From positions 1 to 64,000 of the IMG/VR virus record IMGVR_UViG_3300020156_000025: a DNA stretch of 64,000 nt. The stretch is one strand, 5' to 3'. The notes under the pieces were generated by a model. The model made no database searches, was not told the origin of the DNA, and worked only from the letters and a program-made list of their open reading frames with translations. Positions 273 through 62,827 of the stretch are shown one piece after another; position 1 is the first letter of the stretch; the number at the start of each line of letters is the position of its first letter. Made by a program: the position numbers and the translations under genes. The DNA comes from a virus.

Positions 273-952
273 TCGCGTTCAACAGGCAATGGATACTGGC
301 CCTGCCGCCGCGCACGGGATCGACCGCCCTTGTGACCGACTTGCGGGAGGAGGGCGGACCGCATGCCGTGGACGGGTTCCACCATACGCCGCTGTCCCGC
401 TACCTTTCCTCGTTCAATGCGTGGCCGGAGGGGTTCACGGGGGTGGTGCTTTACCGGGACCCTGCGGAGAGGCTGGCGTCCGCGTGGTTCCACTCCGTGA
501 CCCAGCACGAGAATGTCCAGCAGGGGATGGGGGTGTTCCGGGTGGACCGGCAGGACTGGAAGATATTCCGGGACTGGGCCAGACAGACGCTCGTGAACAC
601 GTTGGTCCAGAGGGACCGCTACAAGTGGCCGCAGGACATGATCGCCACGGGAAAGGGGCCGCATTACCGGAGGCACGTGTTGACGTGGTCGCTGCCGTGC
701 GCGTGGTGGGCCGGAGGGCTCAGGCACGTGCCGGGTATCATGACATCGCTGGACGGGTTGAAATTGTTCCACCCCGACATGGTGCAGCGCACGGGGCTGG
801 GAGCCAGAGGCGGCACGAGCAACCGCACCAAGAACCACGCGCCGCCCTTGTTCGATGCCGTGACGCTGCTGCGCGACGAATTCGGTAAACGGCTGGAGCG
901 TATTTATGCGGATGACTTCAAGGTTCTTGCAAACTGTGCAAAGCAGGGCTAG
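269..952 (+). CDS. Sulfotransferase-like P-loop protein
   Basis: A 227-residue protein with the two landmarks of PAPS-dependent sulfotransferases: a 5'-phosphosulfate loop, PPRTGST, at about residues 13-19, and a 3'-phosphate site with YRDPAERLASAW at about 62-73. Members move sulfate from PAPS to a hydroxyl, often of a sugar. The acceptor cannot be deduced. The ATG at 269 was chosen over an upstream in-frame start at 188 because it sits in an ATGA overlap with the preceding gene and the P-loop then lies at the usual distance from the N terminus. The last codons contain a copy of the dispersed palindrome. It is one of three sulfotransferase-like domains in the window. Confidence 0.7.
   Translation: MIAFNRQWILALPPRTGSTALVTDLREEGGPHAVDGFHHTPLSRYLSSFNAWPEGFTGVVLYRDPAERLASAWFHSVTQHENVQQGMGVFRVDRQDWKIFRDWARQTLVNTLVQRDRYKWPQDMIATGKGPHYRRHVLTWSLPCAWWAGGLRHVPGIMTSLDGLKLFHPDMVQRTGLGARGGTSNRTKNHAPPLFDAVTLLRDEFGKRLERIYADDFKVLANCAKQG
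926..942. repeat. Palindrome copy 1 (operator-like)
   Basis: CTTGCAAACTGTGCAAA, one base off the TTTGCA-N5-TGCAAA consensus. It lies in the last codons of the sulfotransferase-like gene and ends 22 nt before the methyltransferase start. Confidence 0.75.
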
Positions 953-963
953 ACCGGGGAGGT

Positions 964-1599
964 ATGAACGAGCAACCGACGGGTGACGGGGTAAACCATG
1001 CGAGATTCCTGATCGATGGACCGGAAGGGGAGAGGGTAGCGGTATCGCGCGCGGAACAGGTGTCTTGGTTGAAGGAGCGTCATCCGCTGGCCCGGTTCGG
1101 GCACATGCGGACGTGGGACATCGGGGCGTGCGTGGGGCAGTTCGGAAAGGCGCTGCTCGACGCGGAGTTGATCTTCCGGGAGGACTACTTGGGGTGGGAA
1201 CCGTTCCGCGACCAATACGAGCCGCACGTGACCGGTGCCGATGTAATGTTCCCGCACGTCGTGGTGCAACCGGCGGAGGCGATGGGAGAGTTCGTGTTCC
1301 GGAAGCCGGAGCCGAAGTTCGATCTGATCGCGTTCAACCACGTGCTGGAGCATCTGGACGATCCGCTTGAAGCGTTGGACCTTGCGGAGGTCGCCTTGCG
1401 CAACCGCGACGCGAGGATAATGGTGGCGGTGCCGCATTCGGACGACCAATGGGCGTGGGCGGAGGAGGGGCACCTGTGGATGTTCAACGACGTGACGCTG
1501 GCGCGGGTGGCGGACAGGGCAGGACTGTCGGTGAAGGACTCGCGCGTGGTGTCGTTCGCGCCGGGACGGAAGGAACTCTGGATGATGCTGGGGAGATGA
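964..1599 (+). CDS. SAM-dependent methyltransferase, class I
   Basis: A 211-residue protein resembling type-11/type-12 class I methyltransferases. WDIGACVGQFGKAL at about residues 50-63 fits the SAM-binding glycine-rich motif I. FDLIAFNHVLEHLDDPLEAL at about 120-139 is the characteristic motif IV with HVLEH. A late MVAVPHSDD strand is followed by an HLWMF segment, typical of family members acting on sugars or small molecules. The substrate is unknown. Location beside the sulfotransferase and tailspike suggests carbohydrate modification. The stop overlaps the next start (ATGA). Confidence 0.75.
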   Translation: MNEQPTGDGVNHARFLIDGPEGERVAVSRAEQVSWLKERHPLARFGHMRTWDIGACVGQFGKALLDAELIFREDYLGWEPFRDQYEPHVTGADVMFPHVVVQPAEAMGEFVFRKPEPKFDLIAFNHVLEHLDDPLEALDLAEVALRNRDARIMVAVPHSDDQWAWAEEGHLWMFNDVTLARVADRAGLSVKDSRVVSFAPGRKELWMMLGR

Positions 1600-1868
1600 G
1601 CAACGGGCACAAGGACATACCCGTGACGGGAGACGGTGGCGGGCAGGGGGGTAGGATAGTCTACCGTTCGTGGCCGCTGTCGATTCCGGTGGGGAGCATG
1701 CTGTCGTGCCGGAAGGAATCGCCCGTCCTTGCCGCGGCCATAGTCGTGATCGAGAAGACGATGGCGAAGAAAGGCATCGAGACTTTCAAGCGATACGGGA
1801 ACCTGATCGTGACGGAACGGGAATGGGTGGGGGCGTTCCACGAGGGGGACGTGCCGGGGGAGCCTTGA
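1596..1868 (+). CDS. Hypothetical protein, 90 aa
   Basis: A 90-residue protein with a Gly-rich N terminus, then a segment with SMLSCRKESPVLAAAIVVIEK, which is amphipathic to hydrophobic, and an acidic C terminus. No family is recognised. The start was chosen because its ATG overlaps the methyltransferase stop in an ATGA arrangement. Position upstream of the tailspike suggests a late-gene accessory role. Confidence 0.5.
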   Translation: MSNGHKDIPVTGDGGGQGGRIVYRSWPLSIPVGSMLSCRKESPVLAAAIVVIEKTMAKKGIETFKRYGNLIVTEREWVGAFHEGDVPGEP

Positions 1869-1889
1869 CGGGAGGGGGACATCGGTGGC

Positions 1890-2237
1890 ATGTTCCCTCC
1901 CGAGATGCAAAATCTGGTCATAAAACGCGGGGCGATCATCGATTTGACGATCAAGGGTAAGAACGCGGAGGGGGAGGACTTCCCGTTTCCCGCGGAATGG
2001 CCCGTGGCCGGGGAGGTCCGGGATTATGCCGAAGCCACACCCGTGCGGCTCGATCTGGAGCCGGTGATCGAGGACGGGGTGATCCGGGTGAAGATATCCT
2101 CGCAGCCGCTTCCGCCGCAGGAATACGAGCTGGGGATCGTGGTGACGGACACCACCACCGATCCGTCCCTGCCCGCACCGTATTGGACGGAGACCGTGAA
2201 GCTGACCGTGCAGCCCGCCCTTCCGGGGGTGGCCTGA
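1890..2237 (+). CDS. Probable fibre-associated beta-sandwich protein
   Basis: A 115-residue protein with alternating hydrophobic beta-strand-like segments (LVIKRGAIIDLTIKG, RVKISS, YELGIVVTD, TVKLTVQPAL), which looks like a single Ig-like or jelly-roll domain. Similar small beta proteins often sit immediately before tail fibres and act as adaptors or caps. The fold is inferred from pattern only. It ends 33 bp before the tailspike start. Confidence 0.5.
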   Translation: MFPPEMQNLVIKRGAIIDLTIKGKNAEGEDFPFPAEWPVAGEVRDYAEATPVRLDLEPVIEDGVIRVKISSQPLPPQEYELGIVVTDTTTDPSLPAPYWTETVKLTVQPALPGVA

Positions 2238-2270
2238 GTGTGTGCCGGAACCTCATACCGAATAGACAAG

Positions 2271-5555: not shown

Positions 5556-5572
5556 TATGCAAACCGTGCAAA
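5556..5572. repeat. Palindrome copy 2 (operator-like)
   Basis: TATGCAAACCGTGCAAA. It contains the proposed queE ATG (5557-5559), so a protein bound here would occlude transcription through the gene start. Confidence 0.75.
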
Positions 5573-6291: not shown

Positions 6292-6308
6292 AATGCACGC
6301 TTTGCAAA
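6292..6308. repeat. Palindrome copy 3 (operator-like)
   Basis: AATGCACGCTTTGCAAA at the queE/folE junction, 20 nt before the preferred folE start. It also contains an alternative folE ATG at 6293. Confidence 0.75.
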
Positions 6309-9158: not shown

Positions 9159-9485
9159 ATGACTGAACGAACAACCGACAATACCGCCGTATTCCAAGCA
9201 CTGGGTATCCGCGAGATCATCCCGATGGCCGACCACGTGATGGTCGCCCTTCACGGGCGCAAGGCCGAGAGTGAGGGGGGGATCGCGATTCCGGAGATTT
9301 CCCGCAGGGCGGAAGAATGGGGGGTGGTGATTGCCGCCGGGGACAAGGTGGAATTCCTGAGCCCCGGGCACGAGGTGTATGTCTCGCGCTTGCAGGGGAC
9401 GCACTATATCGAGAACGGGGTGGAGATCATCCTGATCCGTGAACCCGAGGTGAAGTGCACGCGCTTGCCGGAACAAGCCGTGTGA
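9159..9485 (+). CDS. GroES-like co-chaperonin
   Basis: A 108-residue protein matching the Cpn10 layout: an N-terminal strand IREIIPMADHVMVALHGRK, then the mobile-loop region ESEGGIAIPE (GGI is the GroEL-contacting tripeptide), then WGVVIAAGDKVEF and a late EIILIRE strand. Phage co-chaperonins (T4 gp31, RB49 CocO) replace host GroES so that GroEL can fold the capsid protein. Here it sits between terminase and the head genes, which suits that role. The ATG at 9159 is chosen; upstream in-frame TTG at 9120 is part of the promoter. Confidence 0.72.
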   Translation: MTERTTDNTAVFQALGIREIIPMADHVMVALHGRKAESEGGIAIPEISRRAEEWGVVIAAGDKVEFLSPGHEVYVSRLQGTHYIENGVEIILIREPEVKCTRLPEQAV

Positions 9486-13966: not shown

Positions 13967-13983
13967 TTTGCACGCTTTGCAAA
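13967..13983. repeat. Palindrome copy 5 (operator-like)
   Basis: TTTGCACGCTTTGCAAA in the portal/14013 intergenic gap, ending 29 nt before the next ATG. Confidence 0.8.
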
Positions 13984-18410: not shown

Positions 18411-18427
18411 TTTGCAAACTGTGCATT
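18411..18427. repeat. Palindrome copy 6 (operator-like)
   Basis: TTTGCAAACTGTGCATT in the divergent gap between the GT11 gene and the capsid gene, between the two candidate promoters. Confidence 0.75.
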
Positions 18428-20326: not shown

Positions 20327-20363
20327 CCCTGCCCGCTAGTCCGGGCAGGGGGTTTGTTGTTTT
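20327..20363 (+). terminator. Rho-independent terminator after capsid gene
   Basis: A 9-bp perfect stem CCCTGCCCG / CGGGCAGGG with loop CTAGTC, followed by GGTTTGTTGTTTT. It lies 50 bp after the capsid stop and runs directly into palindrome copy 7. Confidence 0.85.
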
Positions 20364-20377
20364 GCACGCTGTGCAAA
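20361..20377. repeat. Palindrome copy 7 (operator-like)
   Basis: TTTGCACGCTGTGCAAA, perfect arms, touching the T-tract of the capsid terminator. Confidence 0.8.
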
Positions 20378-24002: not shown

Positions 24003-24019
24003 TTTGCACACCTTGCAAA
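24003..24019. repeat. Palindrome copy 8 (operator-like)
   Basis: TTTGCACACCTTGCAAA, perfect arms, two bases before the tail-tube terminator stem. Confidence 0.8.
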
Positions 24020-25338: not shown

Positions 25339-28300
25339 ATGGCCAACAACGACCAGTCAGTAACCATCGCATTCAACGCCACGGGGGACGCCGTGGTCAC
25401 GCTGGTAAGCCGGTTGACCGGGGGGCTGGACACGCTCGCCCGGTCTTCCGCGTTGGCGGAAAGGGGGCTGAACCGGTTGTCGCAATCGTTCACCGGGATG
25501 GGGCAGGTGAGTGCGGCTGCCGCGGGTAAAATCGCCAACGGTTACAGTGCGTCGCAACGGGCGATGGAAGCGACGACGCTGACGGCGAACCAGTTCGCGA
25601 CGACGCTGAACCGGGTGCGGAGTTCGACATCCGCCGCAACGAATGCGTTGGCGGGGATGAGAACGCAGACCGCGGCGGTAGTGAAGGTGAAGCAGCAGGC
25701 CACGCGGGAAGCCAACAACCTCGGTCTGTCGCTAAAGACGGTGGCCCAGCAGGGTGCCGCGATGGCCGGGGTAACGGTCGGAATCGCGACGATCGGGAAC
25801 GAACTCCGGATGATCGTCTCGACCGCGGCGGATTTCGAGGAGGCTATGGCCGCGGTGGGTGCCGTGGGCGGGGTCGAGGCAGGGTCGTCCACGTTCCGTA
25901 GCCTTGAAGCGGCGGCGGAGCGGGTGGGGGACACCACGAAGTTCTCCGGGACGCAGGCCGCGCAAGGATTGCGGGAGCTGGTCGCCGCGGGTATGAGTGC
26001 CAAGGAGTCCACGACCGCCCTTGCCGACGTGGTGGATCTGAGCATTGCAGGGGAAATGGACATGGCGCGGGCGTCCGAGATCGTGGTCGCCTCGCTTACC
26101 GCGTTCAAGCTGGAGGCGGAAAGCACGGCACGGGTCACGGACGTGCTCGCGCGAGCCGCCAACGCGTCGCCAGCATCCGTCAACGATCTCGGGGAGTCGC
26201 TGAAATTCGTGGCCCCCATCGCGCAGGCGCTCAAGGCCCCGATCGAAGACATCGGAGCCGCCCTTGCGATCCTCGCCAACAGTGGGATCAAGGGAGGGAA
26301 CGCGGGCCGCGGTCTGTCTTCCGTGATGGCGAAGCTGGTCGCACCGACCGCGGAGGCTAAGTCGATGCTGGACTCGCTGGGAATCTCTCTGGAGTCGATC
26401 AACCCGTCCATCGTCGGAATGGAGCGGGCGATGGCACAGCTTTCCAAAATGAACCAGCAGACGCTGGTGCGGATGTTCGGGGTAGAAAACCTCGACATTG
26501 CCAACGTGCTCGCATCGAACGCGGACCGGATGGGCGAGTTCAGGCAGGCCATGTCGGACAGCACCATCACGGCGAGGGGGATGGCGAAAGCCATGTCGGA
26601 CACGCTGAAAGGGGACATGCAGGAGGCGAGCAGCGCGATCGAAGCGGTCCGCAAGGCAATCGGGAATCTGTTCAAGGGGGATCTGCGTTCCCGGGTGCAG
26701 GGGTTCACGGAGTGGTTGCGGGAAAACCAGCAGGCCATCGTCGGGGTGGCGGACACGATGCGCGACCTTGCCCCTGTCGTGGTCACGGTGCTGGGGCACT
26801 ACGTCGCGTTCAAGGGTTTGGCGATGGGGCTGACGCTCGGGAGGCAGGCCGTGGCGTGGGCTCTGGAAACCGCCGCGGTGGTGCGGAACACGGCGTCGAT
26901 CATGGCGAACGCCAATGCCCGCCGATACATGATGCAGGTCGGAATGTTCAACGCGGGTATTCCGATGGGGGTGGCCACGGCGCTCACGTCGAACGTGAGT
27001 TCGTTGTTCGCCGCCGCGTTCGGGGGAGGAGCCACCATTGCCGCGGTCAAGGCGGGATTGACGTTGGTGGGCAGTTCGGCCATCGCCGCCATCATCGGGT
27101 GGGGGCTGGGGAGTTACATCGAGTCTCAATTCAAGATCGGGGACCGGGTAGCCGCCGCGGTGTTCAAAACCTTCGATTCGCTGAATGCCGCCGCGGACGA
27201 TTCGATCAAGACGGTGCAAGGGATGATCGATGCGGCCAAGACGGAGGAACAGCTCGGTGAGGCCCGGGTGCGCGGGGAAAGGGAGCTTGCCAAATGGAAG
27301 GAGATTTCCAACCGGGCGGAGGACGAGTCGAAGACGCTGGCGGAGACCGTCGTGCAAACTTTGCAAAGACGGATGGAGCTGGCCGACCGGACGTTTGCGC
27401 GCAATCAGGCGAACCTCGCGCAGCAGCGGGAAGGTGCCGCCCTTGCCGAGGAGGAACTCAAGAGCAAGCAGGTCGCGCTCTACCACGAGGAGAAGGCGAT
27501 CGCGTTGCGCAAGTCTCAGCTCGACATGGAGAAGAGCACCCGGAGGAACGCCGTGGGCGTCAACCGGAATCTTCTGGAGCGGTCCGACGCCGGAACGAAG
27601 GAGGCGGCATACGATGCCGAGGAGCGTAGGATCACGTCGCTGGCCAATCACTACCGGACCCGATTCAACGCGGTGGCCGCGGCGGCGGGAGTGACAGTCA
27701 TCAACGGGGACCGTGAGATCCGGACCGTGGACGGGGTGATCGCTTACTTCCGTGCCGCGATGCGCGCCGCGGGTGAGACGGGGAGCGCGGCGGTCCGCGG
27801 GGACGCCAGCCTGCATATCCTGACCAGATTCGCGCAGAGTGCGGACGCGATCATCCAAGCCCGGACGAAGCTGAACGAGACCGTCGCGAAGGACGAGAAG
27901 GCGGAGGAGAACGCGCTGCTCAAGAAGCGGGACCTGATGCTGGAGATCCAGATCGCGGAAGCGAAGGCAGCGGGGAACAACACCGGGGCGGAGAGGCTTG
28001 AGAGGGAGCTTCGCGTCTTGCAAGAGAAGCGCCGGATCATGGACGAGTTGAAGGTGTCGGAACGCGAAGCGACCGCCCTTGCGACACGGAAGGTGGATGC
28101 GGAGATAGCGGCCAACCGACCGCCATCGGAGAGACCGGTGGACGTGGTGGCATCGTCGCTCCAGCAGGTAGGAGGCGGCGGGGGCTTCTTCATCGCGGGA
28201 ACACAGAGCATCGGGGAGCGGCAGGTCCGGCTTGCGGAACAAGCCAACGCGCACCTTGCTGGAATCGCGGCCCGGTTGGGGGTGGGACTCTCTCCGGGAA

Positions 28301-32632: not shown

Positions 32633-33192
32633 TGCAGGTGTTCCGGATCAGTGACGCGCCCCGCGAGGGGGAAACCCCGATAAAACCCGTGTGGGGGTTG
32701 GGGAAGGTGCGGGGGAATTGCTCGGCGCAGGCGTCGGCGATGGCCGCGGTGCTGCGGACGGACGTGTATCCGGCGGTGGTGCTGGAGCACGACGCGGAGC
32801 GTCTGCGGGAGGGGTGGCCGGATTTTGCACAATGTGCAAACGCGGGCATGGACTGGTTGTGGTTGGGGGGTTCAACCATCTGGTGCGATGAGCGGGGGGA
32901 GGAAGTCCGGGACAGGCCGATGCCGTGGATGCCGTCTCCGGTGGCGGGGGTGGCGAAGGTGGACGGGCTCTACACGACGCACGCGGTGGCGATCCTGACG
33001 CCGGACGGGGCGATGCGGGCGCTGTGCGCCGCACTGCAAGGAATCCGCAAGGGGTGGCCGGTGGACGTGGCGATCATCATGGAGTGCAGGCATATGGGCT
33101 GGGAACGCTGGTGCGTGACCGAGCCGTGGTTCTGCCAGCGGGGGGTGAACCGCAGGTGGACGGACAAACCGCTGCCGCCGCCCTTGCCATGA
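32632..33192 (+). CDS. GT25-like glycosyltransferase fragment-like protein
   Basis: A 186-residue protein with partial GT25 similarity: YPAVVLEHDAERLREGW (LEDD-equivalent), WLWLGGST, and VDGLYTTHAVAILTPDGAMR in the family order. The donor acidic pair is altered (LEHD), and the N-terminal CxxSH block is missing, so activity is doubtful. It begins TGATG with the previous gene and ends in an ATGA overlap with the next. Palindrome copy 10 lies inside. Confidence 0.55.
   Translation: MQVFRISDAPREGETPIKPVWGLGKVRGNCSAQASAMAAVLRTDVYPAVVLEHDAERLREGWPDFAQCANAGMDWLWLGGSTIWCDERGEEVRDRPMPWMPSPVAGVAKVDGLYTTHAVAILTPDGAMRALCAALQGIRKGWPVDVAIIMECRHMGWERWCVTEPWFCQRGVNRRWTDKPLPPPLP
32824..32840. repeat. Palindrome copy 10, inside GT25-like gene
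   Basis: TTTGCACAATGTGCAAA, perfect arms and a unique CAATG core, encoding AQCAN. Confidence 0.75.
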
Positions 33193-33929
33193 GGACTCTG
33201 GTGCTGTCCTGCGACACGCTGGGAATGGAGGTGATTCCGACCGTGATCCGCTCGGTCGAACGGCACACGGAGGGGGCGCTGCGGGTGGTGGTGTATTCAC
33301 GGGGAATGCATGCGGAGGGGTTCAGGAGGGGTAGGCTGGAGGTGGAGTTCCGCAGACCGAGGGAAGAATTCGGGCAAGCCAAGGGGCGGATCGCCGCGGA
33401 AATGTTCGACCGCTTGTGGTGCATTGCGGATTTGCAGGACACGGAACGGGTGATGATTCTGGACTGGGACCAACTGGCGGTCGGATGTCTGGAGGAGCTG
33501 TGGGACGTGGAGATGACGGGGCAATTCGGGGCGTTCGTGCGCTCGCCCTTCGGCAAGACGTTCAAGTCGTCCCGGTGGATAGGGGAAGGTTACTGGGCGC
33601 AGGACATGCCGGGGGTGGAGCAACCGTTTTTCCGTTTCGGGGGGATGTTGAATCTGGAGGAGTGCCGGAAGGCGGGGATTTTGCAAACCGTGCAAGGGTT
33701 GGCGGGGAATGGATCGACCGAGCAGGCGTTGCTGGCCCACGCAATGGGAGGGAACTACGCGGGGTTGGACCGGAAATGGAACAATCTTGTCAAATACGAG
33801 GGCTTGGTTCCGGATGCCCGCATCCTGCATTGGCACGGGGGGAAGAAGCCTTGGAGCCACGACGGGCTGGACCATGCGGAGTTGTGGCACGCGGCCCGGT
33901 GCTCGTGGAGGGAAATCCGGTTGACTTGA
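33189..33929 (+). CDS. GT8-like glycosyltransferase
   Basis: A 246-residue protein of the GT-A fold type: MRTLVLSCDTLGMEVIPTVI at the N terminus, MILDWDQLAVGCLEELWDV with a DxD-like metal site (DWDQ), FFRFGGMLNLE in mid, and LVPDARILHWHGGKKPWSHD near the C terminus, which matches the HxxGxxKPW donor-binding motif. It transfers a hexose or hexosamine to an acceptor that cannot be told from sequence. Palindrome copy 11 lies within the gene. Confidence 0.7.
   Translation: MRTLVLSCDTLGMEVIPTVIRSVERHTEGALRVVVYSRGMHAEGFRRGRLEVEFRRPREEFGQAKGRIAAEMFDRLWCIADLQDTERVMILDWDQLAVGCLEELWDVEMTGQFGAFVRSPFGKTFKSSRWIGEGYWAQDMPGVEQPFFRFGGMLNLEECRKAGILQTVQGLAGNGSTEQALLAHAMGGNYAGLDRKWNNLVKYEGLVPDARILHWHGGKKPWSHDGLDHAELWHAARCSWREIRLT
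33680..33696. repeat. Palindrome copy 11, inside GT8-like gene
   Basis: TTTGCAAACCGTGCAAG, one mismatch, encoding LQTVQ. Confidence 0.7.
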
Positions 33930-37845: not shown

Positions 37846-37862
37846 TTTGCAAACCGTGCAAA
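37846..37862. repeat. Palindrome copy 12 (operator-like)
   Basis: TTTGCAAACCGTGCAAA, perfect consensus, 7 nt after the holin stop and containing both possible endolysin start codons (TTG 37847, GTG 37856). Confidence 0.8.
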
Positions 37863-38822: not shown

Positions 38823-38839
38823 AATGCAAACTTTGCAAA
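38823..38839. repeat. Palindrome copy 13 (operator-like)
   Basis: AATGCAAACTTTGCAAA, ending 6 bp before the -35 of the early promoter at 38846. Steric control of that promoter is likely if a protein binds. Confidence 0.8.
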
Positions 38840-38845: not shown

Positions 38846-38873
38846 TTGCTAAACGAAACCCGGACTGTATCCT
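38846..38873 (+). promoter_or_regulatory. Early promoter 1
   Basis: TTGCTA, a 16-bp spacer, TATCCT. It belongs to a six-member family sharing TTGCTAAACGAAACCCG. It immediately follows palindrome copy 13 and would drive the 38901 gene with a short leader. Confidence 0.75.
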
Positions 38874-38900
38874 GTGGACACATTCGATCTGCTTCCGCCC

Positions 38901-39236: not shown

Positions 39237-39238
39237 TT

Positions 39239-39255
39239 TTTGCACACTGTTCAAA
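39239..39255. repeat. Palindrome copy 14 (operator-like)
   Basis: TTTGCACACTGTTCAAA, one mismatch in the right arm, in the 50-bp gap before the 39287 gene. Confidence 0.65.
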
Positions 39256-41342: not shown

Positions 41343-41359
41343 TTTGCAAACTTTGCAGA
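41343..41359. repeat. Palindrome copy 15 (operator-like)
   Basis: TTTGCAAACTTTGCAGA, one mismatch, 26 bp upstream of the -35 of early promoter 3. Confidence 0.75.
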
Positions 41360-42915: not shown

Positions 42916-42997
42916 GTGAACGCGGGGAGGGGTAACACCCTCCAGAACCCCCCGGAATCCCCCTCCCCGCTTCACCCTTCCCTTTCCCTTTTCCTTT
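42916..42997 (+). terminator. Long hairpin with pyrimidine tract
   Basis: GTGAA, one-base bulge and GCGGGGAGGGG pair with CCCCTCCCCGC plus TTCAC (16 bp), then a 20-nt C/T tract. It resembles a terminator or mRNA-stability stem after the DUF2997 gene. The tract is not a pure T-run. Confidence 0.55.
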
Positions 42998-43019
42998 CCA
43001 CACCAACCGCCAAACCACC

Positions 43020-45249: not shown

Positions 45250-46619
45250 TCGCGGAATTCGAGACCAAGGAGGAGGAGCAGGCGTATTTCGGATCGTTCT
45301 ACAGATACAAGCTGTGGAGCATGCGGATGATCCGCGACTGGTGGCCGCTGCTGACGAACTCGCAGAGGATCGTGCTGACCTTCGTGTTCGACCGCACGAT
45401 CGGGTGGCGGAAGAGATGGGAGCAGGTGACGTTGCACCACCTGACCCACGGGGTGGAGTCGGAGGACGGGAAGGAATGGATCGGGGGAACGGGGTTGTCG
45501 AAACCGACCCTGATCGAGGCGATGCGGGGGTTGCGGGACATGGGGTTGATACTGGACCGGTGGAACCCGCAGAGGCAGCGCAACGAAATCTGCATCGAAC
45601 TGGAATGGAACCTCGTGGAAGGGGAAACGATCGAAACGAGCCGACATATGGGAGGATTACCGGAACCGAAGAGAGGGCACCGCGGGGGGCGCGGGGCGGG
45701 GAATTTTGCAAACCGTGCAAAGCCCGGAAGGGGGGAAGGGGAGGTCCCGGAAGGGGGGGAGGGTGTAAAGAAACCTTACCCTGCGGGTGTAAAGAAACTT
45801 TACCCTAATAATAAGAAAGGGAAAAACCATAGGTTGAATGCTACGCATTCAACGGGTTCCCCGGGGGAAGGGGAGGCTCCGGGGACGGAGGGGGAGACCC
45901 CTGCCGATGCCGATGCAGCACCCGCTGCCGCCCTTGCCGATGTCGCCGCATCCGCTCTTGCCCGCACGCGGGAACGCCGGGAGGCGAAAAAGGGGAAGGG
46001 AGGAGCCGCGGGGATCGCGGCGGTGTGGGACGACGCGGTGCGTGCCGCCTTGCCCGATGCGCCGCGGGTGGCGGTGACGAAGGCGGACGTGGCAATCCTC
46101 GGGAAATATGCCCGCCGTTTCGCTGCCGCGAATCCCGCGACGCCGTTCGCGGAATACGTGGGGTGGTGCGTAGGGTGGTGGGCGGTGATCCGCGCGCAGG
46201 AGTTCGGGTGGATGCGGGACGGGGGGCCGGAGTTGCCGTCGATCCGCTTTCTCGTGAAGTTCTCGGACCGGTTCGAGCAATGCCACGCGCACCGCGCCGC
46301 CCTTGAGCAGAGGGCCGCGATGACGGCGAGGGAACTGGAGATCGACCGCAGGGTGCGGAGGGGGCAGACGCGGGACGCCGCGGAGCTGGAGGTGGACAAG
46401 GTGGACGCGCTGCGCCGGGAGCAGCGGAAGTTGGAGGATGCGCGGAGGGCGCTGGCGCAGGAGCGCAGGATGGGGGAGGCGGCGTCGGCCCGGAGAGCGG
46501 AGGCGGAACGGCGGAAGGCGGAACTGCGGGAACGCCGGGAACGCATCGACGTTGCCCGCCGCCGCGCCGCGGAATCGCCCGATCCGTCCGGGGCCGGGGG
46601 CTTCGGAACGTGGGATTAG
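45246..46619 (+). CDS. O-like replication initiator with internal origin
   Basis: A 457-residue protein. Residues 1-135 resemble phage replication protein O N-terminal winged helix: WWPLLTNSQRIVLTFVFDRT, HHLTHGVES, GTGLSKPTLIEAMRGLRDMG. A low-complexity linker (about 140-240) contains the origin-like repeats (peptide GVKKPYPAGVKKLYP). The C-terminal half is charged coiled coil, likely for helicase recruitment. The arrangement, with origin in the middle of the initiator, matches lambda O. Palindrome copy 16 lies just upstream of the repeats. Confidence 0.75.
   Translation: MIAEFETKEEEQAYFGSFYRYKLWSMRMIRDWWPLLTNSQRIVLTFVFDRTIGWRKRWEQVTLHHLTHGVESEDGKEWIGGTGLSKPTLIEAMRGLRDMGLILDRWNPQRQRNEICIELEWNLVEGETIETSRHMGGLPEPKRGHRGGRGAGNFANRAKPGRGEGEVPEGGEGVKKPYPAGVKKLYPNNKKGKNHRLNATHSTGSPGEGEAPGTEGETPADADAAPAAALADVAASALARTRERREAKKGKGGAAGIAAVWDDAVRAALPDAPRVAVTKADVAILGKYARRFAAANPATPFAEYVGWCVGWWAVIRAQEFGWMRDGGPELPSIRFLVKFSDRFEQCHAHRAALEQRAAMTARELEIDRRVRRGQTRDAAELEVDKVDALRREQRKLEDARRALAQERRMGEAASARRAEAERRKAELRERRERIDVARRRAAESPDPSGAGGFGTWD
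45705..45721. repeat. Palindrome copy 16, beside origin
   Basis: TTTGCAAACCGTGCAAA, perfect, inside the O-like gene and 39 bp before the iteron-like repeats, a possible coupling of the palindrome system to replication. Confidence 0.8.
45761..45853. other. Putative replication origin
   Basis: Two 22-bp direct repeats (45761-45782 and 45785-45806, 21 of 22 identical), each with the inverted core GTAAAG-AAA-CTTTAC, spaced 24 bp apart, then an AT-rich stretch (45807-45832) and a perfect 9-bp hairpin GTTGAATGC-TAC-GCATTCAAC (45833-45853). Iterons plus an AT-rich segment in an O-like gene resemble lambdoid origins. Confidence 0.7.
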
Positions 46620-48648: not shown

Positions 48649-48665
48649 TATGCACACTTTGCAAA
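48649..48665. repeat. Palindrome copy 17 (operator-like)
   Basis: TATGCACACTTTGCAAA, 7 nt after the helicase stop and 23 nt before the preferred PolA ATG; it contains an alternative ATG at 48650. Confidence 0.8.
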
Positions 48666-48688: not shown

Positions 48689-51580
48689 ATGAAAAGAAGA
48701 GCAAGCAAGCACATCAATAGCGTGGGTAATCTGGACGATCCGGACGTGGTGTTCGTGTGCGATTCGCCGTGGCAACAGGTGTGGGACGAAGGGGGGGTGA
48801 TGACCGGACCGCAAATGGACATCGTGCGGGAGGCGTGCGCGGGGGCCGGGTTGAAGGGGAACCGCTGCGCGTTCATCACCTGTTCCCCGCCGATTCCGCC
48901 GGAGGCGGCGGCGACGGACGCGAGGACGAGGGATTTCCTCGCCTTGCACGCGGAGGAGTTCGCGGAGGAGTTGGGGCGCTTGCTGCCGACGGCGAAGCTG
49001 GTGGTGCCGTTCGGGAAAACCGCGCTGCGGATGGTGGCGGGGAAGTCGGTGGAGATTTCCAAGTGCCGGGGCACCGTGGGGAGGTTCGCGAACGCGGGGG
49101 AGGTGCCGGTGCTGCCGTTGTTCTCGCCCGCGCACGTGTTGCGCAAGCCCGAGGTGAGGGGGGTGTTCGAGTCGGACTTCGGGCAGATACGGGCGTTGCG
49201 GGAATCGGGCTGGGACGGGACGATCTTCGAGCGTTCGATCGCGGGGGCGCACTACGAGTGGGTGACGGACCTGTCGCCCTTGCTCGCGGAGAGGCCGAAG
49301 CGGCTGGCCTTGGACACCGAGACGCTGGGTTACGAGTGGCGGCACGGGAGGCGCATCCTGACGGTGCAATTGACGTGGAAGAAAGGGCACGCGTGGGTGG
49401 TGCCGTTGCAGCGGGGTTACTTCAACAATCCGGAGTTGCGGGGGGAATCGACCCGGCACCTGCCCTTGTTGTCGAAGGTGGACGTGCGGAGACTGGAAGG
49501 GCAGTTGCGGGAGCTGCTGGGGGACCCCCGGACCAAGGTGGTGGGGCACAACCTGAAATACGACCTCCACCACCTGCGCAACCACGGGATCGAGGTGGCG
49601 AACTGGTATGCGGACACGATGCAGTTGGCGTTCCTCGCGGACGAGAACATGCTGTCGAAGTCGTTGGACGATTGCGCCCGGCGCTGGGTGCCGGAGCTGG
49701 GGGGGTATGCGGACGCGTTCAACACCGATCCGGTGCATCAAGGGAAGAGCAGGATGGATCTGGTGCCGCACGACAAGATGATCCGTTACGGGGGCGGGGA
49801 CACGGATGCGTGCTTCCGCCTGTGCGAACGGTTGGTGGAGCTGGGGATGCAGGACGAGCGGCAATGGACCACGTTCCGGCGGGTTCAGATGCCGGGGTTG
49901 AGGACTTTTTTCGAGATGGAACGGAAGGGCATCCGGATCGACCGCGACGCGCTGCGCGAACTCGGGACGGTGCTGGCGAGGCAGGAGCAGGAGATGTATC
50001 AGTCGCTGATGCGGCAGGCCGCGGCCAAGGCTCCCGCCGTGCTGCGCAGGCACGAGGCGGCGGGGTTGTCGTTCACTCGGTCGGCGTTCACGGCGGACCT
50101 GTTGTTCTCGACCGACGGGTTCAAGTTGAAGCCGATCGTGTTCACGGACGGGACCAAGAACCTGCCGGACGAGGAGAAGATACCGAGCACGAGCACGAAA
50201 ACGCACCTGCCCTTTTTCGACCATATCCCGTTCGTGGCGGAGTTGATCGAATACCAGCAGGTGCAGAAGATGCGCAGCACCTACGTGGGATTGCCGGGAG
50301 GGGAGGAATCCGTGCTGCTCAAGCGGACGGCGAAAGGGAAGGTCAACGCGGCGGTGGTGCGGTTGTTCCGGGAGGCGGGAAGGGAGGATGAACTGCCCCC
50401 GGCCAAGACCGTGCCGGTGCGGTCGCGCAACCGGATGATGAAGATAGAGCCGGTGAAGGCGGAGGTGGTGGCCTCGGTGACATCGCCGAAGGGGGGGTTC
50501 CGGATCGACGTGGACACGGCGGGGGATTGCTGGAAGGTCGGGCAACGCGAACCGACCGGGTTCTGGCAGTATCTCGGGGAGGGTCTGGAGGGGGACATCA
50601 TCCATCCTTCGTTCCGTCTGGACAATACGGTGACGGGCCGCTCGTCGTCGCAGAATCCGAACGCGCAGAATTTCCCGAAGCGGGGGAAGCTGGCGAAGGC
50701 ATACCGGAAAATCTTCAAGCCCCGGCCCGGGTTCGTGTTCATCGAGTGCGACCTTTCGCAGGCTGAACTCCGGATCGCGGCGTGGATGGCGAACGATCCG
50801 GTGATGCTCCGCATTTACCGCGAGGGCGGGGACATCCATACGATGATCGCGGCCCGGTCGATGGGACTCACGGACGGGGCGTTCGCGGAACTTCCCGCGG
50901 AGGAACGCAAGGCGGCGCGGCAGAAGGCGAAGGCGGTGAACTTCGGGTTCCTCTACGGGATGTGGTGGAAGAAATTCAAGAATTACGCCAAGACGCAATA
51001 CGGGGTGTCGCTGACGGACCGGGAGTCGGAGAAGATGCGGGAAATGTTCTTCCGCACGTTCCCGGCGCTGGAGGGGTGGCACACGGACATGAAGGCGTTC
51101 GTGAACCGGCACGGGTTCGTGCGTTCGTTGCACGGGGCGTTGCGGCGGTTGCCGGACATCAACTCCAACGACAAGGGGGTGCAGCAGGAGGCGGAGCGGC
51201 AGTCGGTGAACTCGCCCGTGCAACGCTTCGCGTCGGACGTGGGGATCATGGCGATGGCCAGGTTCGGGAGGGATTGCCCGTGGGACGACATGTTCCCGGT
51301 GGCGTTCATCCATGACGCGCTCGTGGTGGAGGCGAGGGAGGAACGCGCGGAGGAGTGCGCGGCGGCAATGAAATATTGCATGGAGACGGTGCCGTTGGAG
51401 GCGTGGTTCGGAATCGTGCCGCCCTTGCCTATCGTGGCGGACGTGAGTATCGGAACCTCGCTGGGGGAGATGGAGGAGAGGCCGGACATCGTGGCCGCGA
51501 TGCCCGCGTGGTTCCGTCCGGAACTCGACCTTGCGCCCCCGGCGGGGAGTGTTTTGCAAACCGTGCAAAATCGCGGGTGA
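48689..51580 (+). CDS. polA: UDG-like domain fused to family A DNA polymerase
   Basis: A 963-residue protein. Residues 1-165 resemble a uracil-DNA glycosylase (family 4/5): VVFVCDSPWQQVWDEGGVMT, ITCSPPIPPEA, LVVPFGKTALRM, LFSPAHVLRKPEV. Next is a DEDDy 3'-5' exonuclease: LALDTETLGYEW, VVGHNLKYDLHHL, IRYGGGDTDACFRL. The polymerase has motif A FIECDLSQAELRIA, motif B RQKAKAVNFGFLYGM and motif C FIHDALVVE. A PVRSRNRMM motif lies in the linker before motif A. SPO1-type phages have similar UDG-Pol fusions. The C terminus encodes LQTVQ (palindrome copy 18). Confidence 0.9.
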   Translation: MKRRASKHINSVGNLDDPDVVFVCDSPWQQVWDEGGVMTGPQMDIVREACAGAGLKGNRCAFITCSPPIPPEAAATDARTRDFLALHAEEFAEELGRLLPTAKLVVPFGKTALRMVAGKSVEISKCRGTVGRFANAGEVPVLPLFSPAHVLRKPEVRGVFESDFGQIRALRESGWDGTIFERSIAGAHYEWVTDLSPLLAERPKRLALDTETLGYEWRHGRRILTVQLTWKKGHAWVVPLQRGYFNNPELRGESTRHLPLLSKVDVRRLEGQLRELLGDPRTKVVGHNLKYDLHHLRNHGIEVANWYADTMQLAFLADENMLSKSLDDCARRWVPELGGYADAFNTDPVHQGKSRMDLVPHDKMIRYGGGDTDACFRLCERLVELGMQDERQWTTFRRVQMPGLRTFFEMERKGIRIDRDALRELGTVLARQEQEMYQSLMRQAAAKAPAVLRRHEAAGLSFTRSAFTADLLFSTDGFKLKPIVFTDGTKNLPDEEKIPSTSTKTHLPFFDHIPFVAELIEYQQVQKMRSTYVGLPGGEESVLLKRTAKGKVNAAVVRLFREAGREDELPPAKTVPVRSRNRMMKIEPVKAEVVASVTSPKGGFRIDVDTAGDCWKVGQREPTGFWQYLGEGLEGDIIHPSFRLDNTVTGRSSSQNPNAQNFPKRGKLAKAYRKIFKPRPGFVFIECDLSQAELRIAAWMANDPVMLRIYREGGDIHTMIAARSMGLTDGAFAELPAEERKAARQKAKAVNFGFLYGMWWKKFKNYAKTQYGVSLTDRESEKMREMFFRTFPALEGWHTDMKAFVNRHGFVRSLHGALRRLPDINSNDKGVQQEAERQSVNSPVQRFASDVGIMAMARFGRDCPWDDMFPVAFIHDALVVEAREERAEECAAAMKYCMETVPLEAWFGIVPPLPIVADVSIGTSLGEMEERPDIVAAMPAWFRPELDLAPPAGSVLQTVQNRG
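51553..51569. repeat. Palindrome copy 18 (operator-like)
   Basis: TTTGCAAACCGTGCAAA, perfect, in the last codons of PolA, 20 bp upstream of the -35 of early promoter 4. Confidence 0.8.
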
Positions 51581-54221: not shown

Positions 54222-54605
54222 ATGTCCGACGAACACCCAACCGAAGCCGTCCGCGCCATGATCCGGGGCGTTTTCGGAAGCTGCGAAGACTTCGAAGACC
54301 GTCCTTGCGCGGTGGCGGTGGTGGAGTTGCCCGGGGGTGCGGTGATGGTGGCGATGGAGGACAACGGGTGCGTGGTGGTGCCCGATTTGCGGGAGTTGTC
54401 GGTGCTGCGGCTGGTCGCGGCTGGATTCGACTACTTCACCGCGGAGAGACTTTCGGTGTGGCTGGCCGGGACAACTTTGCAAACCGTGCAAAGCTCCGGA
54501 CCGGAGACACCGTTGATGGAAAGCAGCGAGGCTGCATCGAACCGCCCCGGAGGGGCATTGAAAGAAGAAACAAACCAAACGACACAGGACAATGGCCAAG
54601 AATAA
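54222..54605 (+). CDS. Hypothetical protein, 127 aa
   Basis: A 127-residue protein with a compact N-terminal domain (VVELPGGAVMVAMEDNGCVV, then LVAAGFDYFTAERLSVWL) and a disordered C terminus after LQTVQSS (palindrome copy 19). It overlaps the SSB gene by 14 bp. An ATG at 54156 lies upstream of the predicted promoter and is less likely. Confidence 0.5.
   Translation: MSDEHPTEAVRAMIRGVFGSCEDFEDRPCAVAVVELPGGAVMVAMEDNGCVVVPDLRELSVLRLVAAGFDYFTAERLSVWLAGTTLQTVQSSGPETPLMESSEAASNRPGGALKEETNQTTQDNGQE
54476..54492. repeat. Palindrome copy 19 (operator-like)
   Basis: TTTGCAAACCGTGCAAA, perfect, 99 nt before the SSB start, inside the 54222 gene. Confidence 0.8.
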
Positions 54606-55805: not shown

Positions 55806-57299
55806 ATGAAACGAGTGAACTGCAAGGCAACGAACGCCACGTCCGGAACCACGCCCGGAACCGCACGGGTGGGGGCGATGGTGGGGTTGCCGCTGGAATG
55901 GTTTTCCCGCGAGGAAGCCATCCGGCTGAGGAAGTCGTTGACGTGCACCCCCGTGGTTTCGTCGGTGGCGCTGTCGTATGGACCGCCGCCTGAACCGATC
56001 GAACAATACCGGGTGGACCGGGATGCCGGGGTGGTTCACGTGCCGCTGTGCACGGGGTTGAGGTGGCTGCGGGAGAACCGGAAGCCGTGGGTGGACGAGC
56101 GGGTAAAGGGGGAGGACCTGACCTATCCGCGCGGACCCCGGGCGAGGGACGAGGGGCAACAGGAATTCTTCAATGCGCTGCTTGCGGGAATGCTGTTGCA
56201 GTGGACGCCGGAGGGGGAGGGAGGGGTGTTCGCGCAGGCTCCGACGGGGAGCGGCAAGACCGTGGCGCTGCTGTGGTGCATTGCACGGGTGGGGAAACCC
56301 GCGCTGGTAATCGTGCCGTCCGTCGAACTCGCCCTTCAATGGAAGCAGGAGGCGATGGACAAGCTCGGGTTGGAGGACGCGCAGGTGGGGATCGTGGGAG
56401 GTGGGTCGAAGACGGGATGGAAGGGGAAGCATCTCGTGGTGGCGGTGATCAACTCGGCGGTGAAACAGGGGGAGGAGTTTTGCAAATCGTTCGGGATCGT
56501 GGGATGGGACGAGGGGCACAGGGTCCCCGCCAACACGTTCTCGCGCTCCTTGACCATGTTCCCGGCGGCAATCCGGGTGGTGTTGTCCGCGACGCCGGAG
56601 CGCAAGGACGGGATGCACGTGATGATCCATAACGCGGTGGGGGAGGTGTCGGTGGCTTCCAAGGTGAGGGTGATGCCGCTGGTTTACATGGAGACGAATT
56701 ACCGGGATACCCGTGCGGTGAAGTGGGGGGATCTCCAACTGTCCCGGATTCTCACGCTGATTTCCAAGGACGAGGTGCGGAACGGATGGATCGGGAGGAA
56801 AGCCGCGGAGCTGGTGCTGCGCGAGGGGCGTTGCGTGCTGGTGCTGTCGGACCGGATCGAACAACTCTACCGGATCGAACAACACGCCTTGCGCGCGGGG
56901 GTGCCCGCGGAGGCGATCGGGACTTTCGCCGGGCAGCAGGTGACGGGCATTTCCAAGCAACGCGGGCGCAAGGTGGTGGAAGGGGGGGAGGTATCGCGGG
57001 AGGCCCGGAAGAGGATCAAAACCGACGAAGGGGTGCGGTTGATATTGGCGACGTTCGGGAGCATGAAGGAGGGGGTGGATATTCCGCGCATAGATGCCGG
57101 GATCGAGGCGATGCCGAAATCCACCGCGGTGCAGGCTTGCGGACGCGCCCGCCGATACATGGAAGGGAAGAGGACTCCCGTGTGGTATTCGATTGTGGAT
57201 ACGGGGGTGCCGATGCTAAAAGGATTCGCTTCGGCCCGGAGGAAAGAACTGACCCGGGCGAAGAATGTCACTTTCAAACTCATACCGGACATCGAATGA
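55806..57299 (+). CDS. SF2 helicase, UvsW/DEAD-like
   Basis: A 497-residue helicase. Motif I is QAPTGSGKTVALL near 145, motif Ia PALVIVPSVELALQWK, motif II FGIVGWDEGHRVPA (DEGH), motif III VVLSATPERKDG, motif V GSMKEGVDIPRIDAGIEA and motif VI AVQACGRARRY near 440. UvsW-like helicases act in fork regression and recombination. Its stop overlaps the next start (ATGA). No PVRSRR motif. Confidence 0.85.
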   Translation: MKRVNCKATNATSGTTPGTARVGAMVGLPLEWFSREEAIRLRKSLTCTPVVSSVALSYGPPPEPIEQYRVDRDAGVVHVPLCTGLRWLRENRKPWVDERVKGEDLTYPRGPRARDEGQQEFFNALLAGMLLQWTPEGEGGVFAQAPTGSGKTVALLWCIARVGKPALVIVPSVELALQWKQEAMDKLGLEDAQVGIVGGGSKTGWKGKHLVVAVINSAVKQGEEFCKSFGIVGWDEGHRVPANTFSRSLTMFPAAIRVVLSATPERKDGMHVMIHNAVGEVSVASKVRVMPLVYMETNYRDTRAVKWGDLQLSRILTLISKDEVRNGWIGRKAAELVLREGRCVLVLSDRIEQLYRIEQHALRAGVPAEAIGTFAGQQVTGISKQRGRKVVEGGEVSREARKRIKTDEGVRLILATFGSMKEGVDIPRIDAGIEAMPKSTAVQACGRARRYMEGKRTPVWYSIVDTGVPMLKGFASARRKELTRAKNVTFKLIPDIE

Positions 57300-57856
57300 G
57301 ATCTAAACTGGAGCAAGCCGCGAGTCGGATCAAAACGGAACAAGCCAAGGTGCCGTATCATCTCGGTCCGGCGTATAAGTCGGCGCGCCGCGCGCGCTAT
57401 CAGGAGGACGAGGAATATCGCCAGAGGTGCATCGAGACCGCGACGGAACACCGCCGGAAGGTGATGCGGGAGTCGCCGTCGGCGAGGGAATACCGCGATA
57501 CCGTGACCGGGAACCTGTCCCGCATGGAAGACTTCGGGACGTGGCACGCGATCCGCGTTCAGGTGGGCCGGAAGCCGTCGCATACCAGCGGGGTGACGTT
57601 CAGCACGAACCAGATCGCGCGCCTGATCGCAAGACGACCGGAGGCGGTGGCCGGGTGGCAGGACAGGGGGCTGTTCCCCGAGCCCAGGCACGCCGTGCTG
57701 GACGAGAACGGGAAGGAGACCGGGCGACGGGTCTATACCGCGGAGGAGGCAAGGAAACTCGCCCTTGCCGCCAAGAAGTGGTTCTACGGGAAGAGCACGC
57801 ACCTTGCGTCGCAGGGGCCGAAGGCGGTGGCGGAATTCCACGCCGCTTGCTGCTGA
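57296..57856 (+). CDS. MerR-like helix-turn-helix protein
   Basis: A 186-residue protein with a basic helical N terminus and a C-terminal MerR/excisionase-like domain: FSTNQIARLIARRPEAVAGW, QDRGLFPEPRHAV, RRVYTAEEARKLALAAKKW. It is a candidate DNA-binding regulator or recombination accessory. It starts in an ATGA overlap with the helicase. Confidence 0.62.
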   Translation: MRSKLEQAASRIKTEQAKVPYHLGPAYKSARRARYQEDEEYRQRCIETATEHRRKVMRESPSAREYRDTVTGNLSRMEDFGTWHAIRVQVGRKPSHTSGVTFSTNQIARLIARRPEAVAGWQDRGLFPEPRHAVLDENGKETGRRVYTAEEARKLALAAKKWFYGKSTHLASQGPKAVAEFHAACC

Positions 57857-57872: not shown

Positions 57873-57889
57873 TTTGCATGCTTTGCAAA
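57873..57889. repeat. Palindrome copy 20 (operator-like)
   Basis: TTTGCATGCTTTGCAAA, perfect arms, ending 25 nt before the 57915 gene. Confidence 0.8.
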
Positions 57890-60677: not shown

Positions 60678-61696
60678 GTCTTGCCCGCCGCGTGTTGCAG
60701 ACGATGCGGGAACCCCGGAATCCCGGGCCGCAGAGCGTTCCGGTGCGCTCGCGCCGTCCTGTTTTGCAAACCGTGCAAACCGAGAGTCCCGCCGCCGGAA
60801 CGGAAGAGGAGGAGGAGGACGAGCCGTGCGTGACGGCGGGATGGGACGTGGAGCAGGCGTTCGTGACCCGCGCCGCCCTTGTGATGGACCGACAGGGGGA
60901 GGAGTCCCGGACGGGTAGCGAGCTAATCCACCTGTCTTCCATGCTGGCGAAAGACTGGTGCCCGAGGAGACACGTGTTGGCGGCGCGACACGGGGAACGC
61001 CAACTCAAGAGGGTGATGGCTCAGGACCGGATCGTGTGGGAGATGGGACGGGCGGCGGAAAGGCACCTGCGGAACCAGTTCATCGCGTCGCACGGGAGGA
61101 CTCGGGTGGTGGGCAGATGGCAATGTGCGTGCGAGGCGCTCAAGGTGGACGGAAGGGGGCTGTCTGCCGCCGCCTTGCGTTCGGGCAGGCATCGCTGCGC
61201 ACGTTGCAACGGGAACCCGATACACTACGGGGAGCTTCCGGTGACGGGGGACAACCTGACGGGTTCCCCGGACTTGCAATTCATTGAGGGTGCCTCGGTG
61301 GGGCGGCACGTCACCGAGATCAAATCGATCAACAAGCGGGAATACGACCTGCTGACGGGTCCGCTGCCGGTGCACGTGCTCCAGTTGTCGGGCTATGTGC
61401 TGATGCTGCGGGCGGCGGGGGTGGTGGTCGATACAGCCCGGGTGGCGTATGTCTGCAAGGACTACGTGCCGCCGGGAACCAGTCCCTACAAGGAGTATGT
61501 GGTGATGCGACCGGGGCTGGAGTTGCCCGCCGCGCAACGGGCCGGGATCGGGCTGATCCAAGAGCAGGCGTCCGCGCTGGGAGCCACGCTCAGGAACTCG
61601 GGGCCTTTGCCGCCCCGGCTGACCAAGTGCACGGCTCCGACCGCGACGGCGGCGAAGGGGTGCAGCCAGTGCGCGCTGTGCTTTTCCTTGGACTGA
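60674..61696 (+). CDS. Cas4-like/RecB-type nuclease with Fe-S cysteines
   Basis: A 340-residue protein with a PD-(D/E)XK nuclease core: HLSSMLAKDWCPRRHVLAAR, DNLTGSPDLQF with Asp and VTEIKSINKREYDLL with ExK. One Cys sits in DWCPRR and three at the C terminus (LTKC, GCSQCALC), the Cas4-type 4Fe-4S set. A middle zinc-like insert (WQCACEAL, CARCNG) is extra. VPVRSRRPVL lies at residues 21-30. Palindrome copy 21 is near the 5' end. It would resect DNA. Confidence 0.78.
   Translation: MSLARRVLQTMREPRNPGPQSVPVRSRRPVLQTVQTESPAAGTEEEEEDEPCVTAGWDVEQAFVTRAALVMDRQGEESRTGSELIHLSSMLAKDWCPRRHVLAARHGERQLKRVMAQDRIVWEMGRAAERHLRNQFIASHGRTRVVGRWQCACEALKVDGRGLSAAALRSGRHRCARCNGNPIHYGELPVTGDNLTGSPDLQFIEGASVGRHVTEIKSINKREYDLLTGPLPVHVLQLSGYVLMLRAAGVVVDTARVAYVCKDYVPPGTSPYKEYVVMRPGLELPAAQRAGIGLIQEQASALGATLRNSGPLPPRLTKCTAPTATAAKGCSQCALCFSLD
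60763..60779. repeat. Palindrome copy 21 (operator-like)
   Basis: TTTGCAAACCGTGCAAA, perfect, about 90 nt inside the Cas4-like gene, encoding LQTVQ right after the PVRSRR motif. Confidence 0.8.
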
Positions 61697-62324: not shown

Positions 62325-62409
62325 CTGCCCGTATCCCTGAAATTAGGCGATAGGGGGGAATTTTCCTCGGTTAAGAATCAACGAGTTATACCGGTTTCTG
62401 CAAAGATTT

Positions 62410-62426
62410 GCTGCAAACTTTGCAAA
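62410..62426. repeat. Palindrome copy 22 (operator-like)
   Basis: GCTGCAAACTTTGCAAA, ending 6 bp before the -35 of early promoter 6, exactly as copy 13 is placed at promoter 1. Confidence 0.75.
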
Positions 62427-62432
62427 ATCGAC

Positions 62433-62461
62433 TTGCTAAACGATACCCGGTGCCGCATGCT
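62433..62461 (+). promoter_or_regulatory. Early promoter 6
   Basis: TTGCTA, a 17-bp spacer, CATGCT, next to palindrome copy 22; the same module as promoter 1. Confidence 0.75.
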
Positions 62462-62485
62462 GTCCCCCGTCAACCGAAACCGCCA

Positions 62486-62782
62486 ATGAAAACCGATCCT
62501 GATACTTCCACGTTGTCTATCGCTGCCGACAAGTTCCGTTTGTTCGATTTCACCGATCCGGACAACAAAACCCTCCGCACCTACGCAACCCGCGAGCGAC
62601 TGAATACCGCAATCGATCGTCTTGCGTCCGGTTTGTTGCAATCCTTTCGCTCCAGCGTGACGCTGGTGCCGCTGTGCACGCCTGCCGGTCGCCATACCGC
62701 GCTGTTTATCCTTCGTTCTGACACCGCCCACTTGACTACGTTTTTCGTGAATCGCGGATTCGCGGTCTATGTGGGAGGCTGA
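62486..62782 (+). CDS. Early hypothetical protein, 98 aa
   Basis: A 98-residue protein with alternating strands and helices (DKFRLFDFTDPDNKTLRTYA, SFRSSVTLVPLCTPAGRHTA, LFILRSDTAHLTTFFV). No family is recognised. The ATG at 62486 follows the AACCGAAACCGCCA leader. It uses A/T-ending codons more than its neighbours, possibly reflecting recent acquisition. Confidence 0.55.
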   Translation: MKTDPDTSTLSIAADKFRLFDFTDPDNKTLRTYATRERLNTAIDRLASGLLQSFRSSVTLVPLCTPAGRHTALFILRSDTAHLTTFFVNRGFAVYVGG

Positions 62783-62810
62783 TCCTTGTCCCCCGTCCGC
62801 CCCGGAACTT

Positions 62811-62827
62811 TTTGCAAACTGTGCATT
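62811..62827. repeat. Palindrome copy 23 (operator-like)
   Basis: TTTGCAAACTGTGCATT, two mismatches in the right arm, in the gap before the last gene. Confidence 0.7.

Follow-up and report, generated by a model that had tools for sequence, protein, structure and literature searches.

The 64,000-nucleotide stretch analyzed here (the window) comprises the first 64,000 bases of an 89,984-base virus contig (IMG/VR record IMGVR_UViG_3300020156_000025), 63% GC, with practically all genes on the + strand, as judged from gene calls made with a simple codon-usage script. A terminase, portal, capsid and tape measure are encoded, together with a family A DNA polymerase, a DnaB-type helicase, a primase, a DEAD helicase, RecA and RuvC. 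No tyrosine recombinase (PF00589), serine recombinase (PF00239), ParA-type ATPase (PF13614, nothing above its cut-off) or CI-like HTH_3 domain was detected by profile searches in this phage, though the contig may be incomplete. Distributed along the window are copies of a short palindromic DNA word, which are listed below with the associated promoters and the two genes considered as candidates for encoding the protein that reads them.

926..942 (+), palindrome copy CTTGCAAACTGTGCAAA, near a gene end
5556..5572 (+), palindrome copy TATGCAAACCGTGCAAA, junction
6292..6308 (+), palindrome copy AATGCACGCTTTGCAAA, directly after a stop codon
9877..9893 (+), palindrome copy TTTGCAAACCGTGCAAA, gene end
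13967..13983 (+), palindrome copy TTTGCACGCTTTGCAAA, junction
18411..18427 (+), palindrome copy TTTGCAAACTGTGCATT, intergenic
20361..20377 (+), palindrome copy TTTGCACGCTGTGCAAA, directly after a terminator-like hairpin
24003..24019 (+), palindrome copy TTTGCACACCTTGCAAA, directly before a terminator-like hairpin
27351..27367 (+), palindrome copy CGTGCAAACTTTGCAAA, inside the tape measure gene
32824..32840 (+), palindrome copy TTTGCACAATGTGCAAA, inside a gene; the only copy with A at the center
33680..33696 (+), palindrome copy TTTGCAAACCGTGCAAG, inside a gene
37846..37862 (+), palindrome copy TTTGCAAACCGTGCAAA, junction
38823..38839 (+), palindrome copy AATGCAAACTTTGCAAA, ending 6 nt before the -35 at 38846
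38846..38880 (+), sigma70-like promoter TTGCTA-N16-TATCCT
39239..39255 (+), palindrome copy TTTGCACACTGTTCAAA, junction
41343..41359 (+), palindrome copy TTTGCAAACTTTGCAGA, 26 nt before the -35 at 41386
45705..45721 (+), palindrome copy TTTGCAAACCGTGCAAA, inside the lambda-O-like gene
48649..48665 (+), palindrome copy TATGCACACTTTGCAAA, helicase/polymerase junction
51553..51569 (+), palindrome copy TTTGCAAACCGTGCAAA, polymerase gene end, 20 nt before the -35 at 51590
54476..54492 (+), palindrome copy TTTGCAAACCGTGCAAA, upstream of gene 54592
57296..57856 (+), MerR-like winged-helix protein, second candidate for the binder; several relatives carry an AT-hook-like N terminus
57873..57889 (+), palindrome copy TTTGCATGCTTTGCAAA, after gene 57296
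60763..60779 (+), palindrome copy TTTGCAAACCGTGCAAA, junction
62410..62426 (+), palindrome copy GCTGCAAACTTTGCAAA, ending 6 nt before the -35 at 62433
62433..62462 (+), sigma70-like promoter TTGCTA-N17-CATGCT, upstream of a small ORF and of gene 62894
62811..62827 (+), palindrome copy TTTGCAAACTGTGCATT, in the loop of a strong GC hairpin, 66 nt before gene 62894
62894..63991 (+), best candidate for the binder: 365-aa protein with an N-terminal domain, a Lys/Ala-rich histone-H1-like linker and a conserved helical C-terminal domain (phrog_17202, unknown function)

A dispersed palindrome along the contig

The observation made in the initial annotation, that the 17-mer TTTGCA-N5-TGCAAA is dispersed in 23 copies through the window, is confirmed and proves to be larger than was reported. 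A search allowing up to two mismatches returned 24 matches against 1.07 expected from shuffled sequences (the largest shuffle giving 5); one of these, at 8225, lacks the spacer pattern and fails the weight matrix, leaving 23 true copies. We count 17 copies with at most one mismatch rather than the 19 initially claimed. On the whole contig, the weight matrix finds 34 copies, all scoring at least 24.4, whereas the next-best place scores 8.5. The motif extends to 19 bp, with the consensus TTTTGCA[AC][AG]C[CT][GT]TGCAAAA, and the central base on the + strand is C in 33 copies and A in one, never G, such that no copy points against transcription by its central base. Of the 34 copies, 22 are not fully coding against 4.4 expected, though several lie inside genes, including gene ends. 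The association with promoters and terminators was also borne out: the copies at 38823, 62410 and 66912 end exactly 6 nt before a TTGCTAAAC -35 element, and copies adjacent to the hairpins at about 20340 and 24030 were confirmed by eye.

Lineage-specific palindromes in related phages

Terminase and polymerase searches brought related viral contigs (here labeled G001, G011 and so forth) and cultured phages. A search for the exact motif in all viral contigs gave only 8 single chance hits, and none of the other genomes carries this exact motif in dispersed form; however, each close relative examined carries a palindrome of its own. Among the contigs these are TTTGACCGTCGGTCAAA in 24 copies in G001, TTTGCAA-N3-TTGCAAA in 31 copies in G011, a TTTG[CA]AC-type in 19 copies in G012, a TTTGCAC-type in 23 copies in G013, TTTGCAAC-N-GTTGCAAA in 38 copies in G014, TGCAAC-NN-GTTGCA in 37 copies in G015, TGCAAC-N-GTTGCA in 32 copies in G016 and TTTGAAA-N3-TTTCAAA in 45 copies in G017. 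Among the cultured phages, Aeromonas HJ05 has 27 copies, Rhizobium L338C 55, Agrobacterium JP1 46, Rhodobacter RcTiptonus 52 and Pseudomonas SM1 33, while the Vibrio phages vB_VcaS_HC and PJ32 have 26 and 27 of a degenerate form. The Vibrio result was checked, as two different seeds converge on the same word and the sites are intergenic 15 to 2.4, whereas the outgroup G018 and shuffled genomes give at most 10 sites with at most modest non-coding excess. The more distant G018 (terminase 38%) has no such motif, and the smaller contigs G019, G020, G022 and G024 agree with the larger ones. In total, 16 genomes (this phage and 15 relatives) carry 19-55 copies each of a related but lineage-specific palindrome; these motif sets come from symmetric expectation maximization (EM) with fixed thresholds.

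In all 16 genomes the sites, spread every 2-4 kb, are more evenly spaced than random positions of the same coding class (CV 0.41-0.66 against about 1.0-1.3, P<=0.001) and are rarely within 500 bp of each other, though the related genomes share ancestry and the per-genome P values are therefore not independent tests of function. The sites favor gene junctions and are enriched in non-coding DNA in every genome. The initial annotation had named absence of the motif from the same junctions in related phages as grounds for refutation, and on this test the junctions are largely not shared: at most 3 of 24 orthologous junctions carry a site in both genomes (this phage and G001, P=0.09), with 0 or 1 in other pairs. 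As the system nevertheless recurs in every relative with diverged sequence, this argues against gene-specific control rather than against the motif, and the number and spread of sites seem to be kept rather than their attachment to particular genes.

The center or the better arm is significantly biased relative to transcription in this phage, G001, G011, G013, G014, HJ05 and the two Vibrio phages, but not in the others, and as all genes run one way this could equally reflect the direction of replication or packaging. Across 549 sites in the 16 genomes, a sigma70-like -35 hexamer begins 6 or 7 nt after the site in 49 cases (about 9%) against about 3.4 expected, with TANNNT enriched at +28 to +30 as a matching -10 peak, which puts the palindrome center near -51. 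In this phage three copies show this arrangement, at exactly 6 nt. A secondary peak at offset -7 arises because the motif itself resembles a -35 box and was disregarded. Most sites have no recognizable promoter.

Candidate binding proteins

Any protein that reads the palindromes should occur wherever the motif does, and both the 62894 family and the MerR-like 57296 family qualify, as do the replication enzymes. The 62894 family is present in all 16 motif-bearing genomes and was not detected in the motif-negative relative G018 or in the Cluster O mycobacteriophage Catdawg (E=0.32). A site lies within 200 nt upstream of its start in 12 of 16 genomes (P=1.6e-6 against all genes), the best of 40 families; after matching for the length of the intergenic region this falls to 11 of 15 against 4.8 expected (P=0.0013), and is thus suggestive rather than proof. 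Its divergence follows motif divergence best among ten families tested (partial r=0.32, P=0.006 uncorrected), though both the upstream-site and covariation tests become marginal after correction for the number of families. The protein has an Ala/Lys-rich linker like that of histone H1 and a predicted helical C-domain (AF2 pLDDT 83), whose top Foldseek match is the dispersed-palindrome binder Noc with probability 0.95 but E=0.94, such that the fold assignment is not secure. No Pfam or NCBIfam family matches it, its only match is phrog_17202, and it is annotated as hypothetical in RcTiptonus, JP1 and vB_VcaS_HC. A RecA match of the family profile in the PDB has no stretch passing the threshold on its own and was disregarded. 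In this phage the copy immediately upstream of 62894 lies in the hairpin loop, and the nearest promoter with a site is further up at 62410/62433.

The two binders proposed in the initial annotation, the winged-helix protein (10728) and the MerR-like protein (57296), are not favored. The winged-helix gene had no BLAST relative in the first three relatives compared. The MerR-like protein has a predicted DNA-binding domain (AF2 pLDDT 85; Foldseek nearest HiNmlR, BldC and Xis, none significant) and a basic N terminus, and was found in all 16 motif-bearing genomes but not in Catdawg or G018. However, it has no conserved upstream site (0 of 13), its covariation with the motif is not significant (r=0.16, P=0.16), and its homologues vary from full length to the HTH alone. 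Other proteins were considered and rejected. The ParB_N proteins near the terminase have no evident DNA-binding domain and are also present in the motif-negative G018; CI-like HTH_3 repressors are only sporadic, in genomes G015, W03 and W04; and DUF1257-like, GroES-like and other core proteins, considered from alignments, were likewise set aside.

Interpretation and comparison with known systems

Our findings highlight what looks like a genome-wide set of docking sites for one of the virus's own DNA-binding proteins. We consider it very probable that the palindromes are DNA-level binding sites, in our model for a dimeric phage-encoded protein that acts on the whole genome. The unannotated 62894 protein is the most likely binder, though at no better than even confidence, and would probably control its own gene through the site just upstream of it in most relatives. 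At about 9% of sites the dimer would sit centered near -51, directly upstream of a sigma70-like -35 box, and could control initiation there. At the other, evenly spaced sites it would act on RNA polymerase passing along the single transcription direction, in the manner of a stoperator, and perhaps also hold the genome as an architectural protein. As a whole, we hold this model at about even odds. What the analysis establishes is the motif family, its even spacing, its preference for junctions, the orientation bias in about half of the phages, the fixed spacing to promoters and the co-conservation with the candidate; that a protein binds, which protein it is, that it is a dimer, and what binding does, including any stopping of transcription at the sites, are inferred from sequence alone.

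An alternative, which we regard as possible but less likely, is a system of genome architecture in which the binder, with its histone-like tail, uses regularly spaced palindromes to fold, protect, segregate or prepare the phage genome in the manner of Noc, RacA or MatP sites, the promoter-linked sites being secondary. The even spacing in all 16 genomes with few sites closer than 500 bp, the lack of conserved junctions, the majority of sites without promoters, the H1-like linker and the weak similarity to Noc are in accordance with this view, whereas the sharp 6-7 nt spacing to -35 boxes and the orientation bias in about half of the genomes point to transcription, albeit that packaging or replication direction cannot be separated from it. 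That the MerR-like protein is instead the binder is unlikely, given its lack of an operator of its own and of significant covariation with the motif. It is very unlikely that the sites are iterons for the lambda-O-like replication initiator (45246-46619). O-type initiators bind palindromic iterons, and in all four of the first phages compared one site lies inside this gene, but no homologue was detected in the Vibrio phages that carry the motif and the sites are dispersed singly rather than clustered as at an origin. Least likely of all is that the element works as an RNA hairpin in processing, termination or stability. Its orientation is fixed in this phage and some copies can fold weakly; however, 59 of 272 arm pairs in this phage are broken and none is compensated, which is not what an RNA hairpin would show, one copy tested barely folds, and G011 alone shows a small excess of compensation.

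Dispersed repressor sites are already known from a few temperate phages. Here, a similar layout recurs across phages of several proteobacterial genera with no sign of lysogeny genes, with regular spacing and a different word in each. In the literature searched, which did not extend to many subscription papers, we found no report of these palindromes for this group, and the RcTiptonus paper (PMC8601537) holds none of the palindrome terms searched and reports no evidence of lysogeny. One relative of the Vibrio phages, VHS1, is described as temperate (PMC10141217), and thus the description as apparently lytic may not hold for every member. A tentative reading, which we place slightly below even odds, is that a widespread, undescribed group of apparently lytic phages controls or organizes its entire genome through 19-55 evenly spaced palindromes read by a new family of DNA-binding proteins of the 62894 type (H1-like tail plus a possibly Noc-like domain), with site specificity drifting between lineages as for immunity repressors but without lysogeny. 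If a single phage protein reads these sites, it would be a new global regulator or phage chromatin protein, and the cultured hosts (Aeromonas, Rhizobium, Agrobacterium, Rhodobacter, Pseudomonas and Vibrio) make this proposal testable now.

Among known systems, Noc and KorB of the ParB family are proteins that each bind dispersed palindromes, and dispersed palindromic sites are likewise present here, with the weak fold similarity of the 62894 C-domain to Noc noted above; however, no ParB_N (CTPase) domain was detected by Pfam in the 62894 family, and the ParB_N proteins of these phages are other genes. The SPbeta repeated element SPBRE with MrpR (PMC10516654) similarly has one phage master regulator bound to many repeated sites in intergenic regions, but its element is 15 bp, is bound at promoters by a tyrosine-recombinase-like repressor of a prophage, and accounts for about ten peaks. 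The 17-bp repeats of Cluster O mycobacteriophages (Corndog/Catdawg, TGTTCGG-N3-CCGAACA; PMC4351075), to which its authors assigned no function, are 7-3-7 palindromes in at least 34 copies, often in junctions, in phages with no integrase, and an AAA-ATPase is shared at about 27% identity. Their word is different, they are clustered, with 13 gaps under 500 bp and only weak evenness, and no homologue of 62894 or 57296 was found in Catdawg, though our findings could also bear on these unexplained repeats.

The closest functional model is the stoperator system of Cluster A mycobacteriophages (L5, RedRock) with the Rep repressor (PMC6550527, PMC9283540), and the initial interpretation, which invoked L5 stoperators with a symmetric site, is partly supported. 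The analogy is a good one as to how the system may work, but lysogenic immunity is not supported and membership in the Cluster A system fails. Stoperators are asymmetric 13-bp sites bound by a monomeric Rep in temperate phages with integrase or parABS, whereas the site described here is a near-perfect palindrome of 17-19 bp in a phage in which no lysogeny gene was detected. A search of the 16 genomes for a Rep homologue with RedRock gp74, which had no positive control, returned no match at E<=0.1. The spacing is also more even here (CV 0.41-0.66) than in RedRock, which on rescanning has 24 sites with a mean gap of 2.15 kb and a CV of 0.71 (P=0.067). What the Cluster A phages, with 24-30 sites per genome about every 2 kb, have in common with the phages described here is many dispersed sites, a few at promoters and most not, oriented with transcription (here significantly so in about half of the 16 genomes), a conserved site upstream of the regulator gene (here the candidate 62894), and motif sequences that diverge between lineages.

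Promoter-associated sequence elements

We observed that seven promoters, at 38846, 39569, 41386, 51590 and 62433 of the window and at contig 66935 and 84311 (in L005 and L006, our labels for further stretches of DNA), share TTGCTAAACGAAACCCGG-like sequence well beyond the -35 hexamer, which suggests a second regulatory element in the spacer. Three similar cassettes were also found, each comprising an ATCAACGAGTTA-like repeat, a palindrome, a promoter, a small ORF and a second palindrome, though the ORFs differ:

window 38780-39300
window 62370-62830
contig 66880-67440 (L005)

Additional encoded proteins

Queuine tRNA-ribosyltransferase-like and QueC-domain proteins, encoded at L005:14475-15425 and L006:6923-9355, suggest 7-deazaguanine DNA modification. 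ParB_N-domain proteins, at L005:12784-13590 and in relatives, where up to several copies lie near the terminase, are without an evident DNA-binding domain. As judged from the alignment, a GroES-like co-chaperonin (window 9159-9485) is conserved in most relatives. A conserved AAA-ATPase cassette lies at window 39642-43391 with a DUF1257-like protein next to it, and the ATPase is shared with Cluster O mycobacteriophages.
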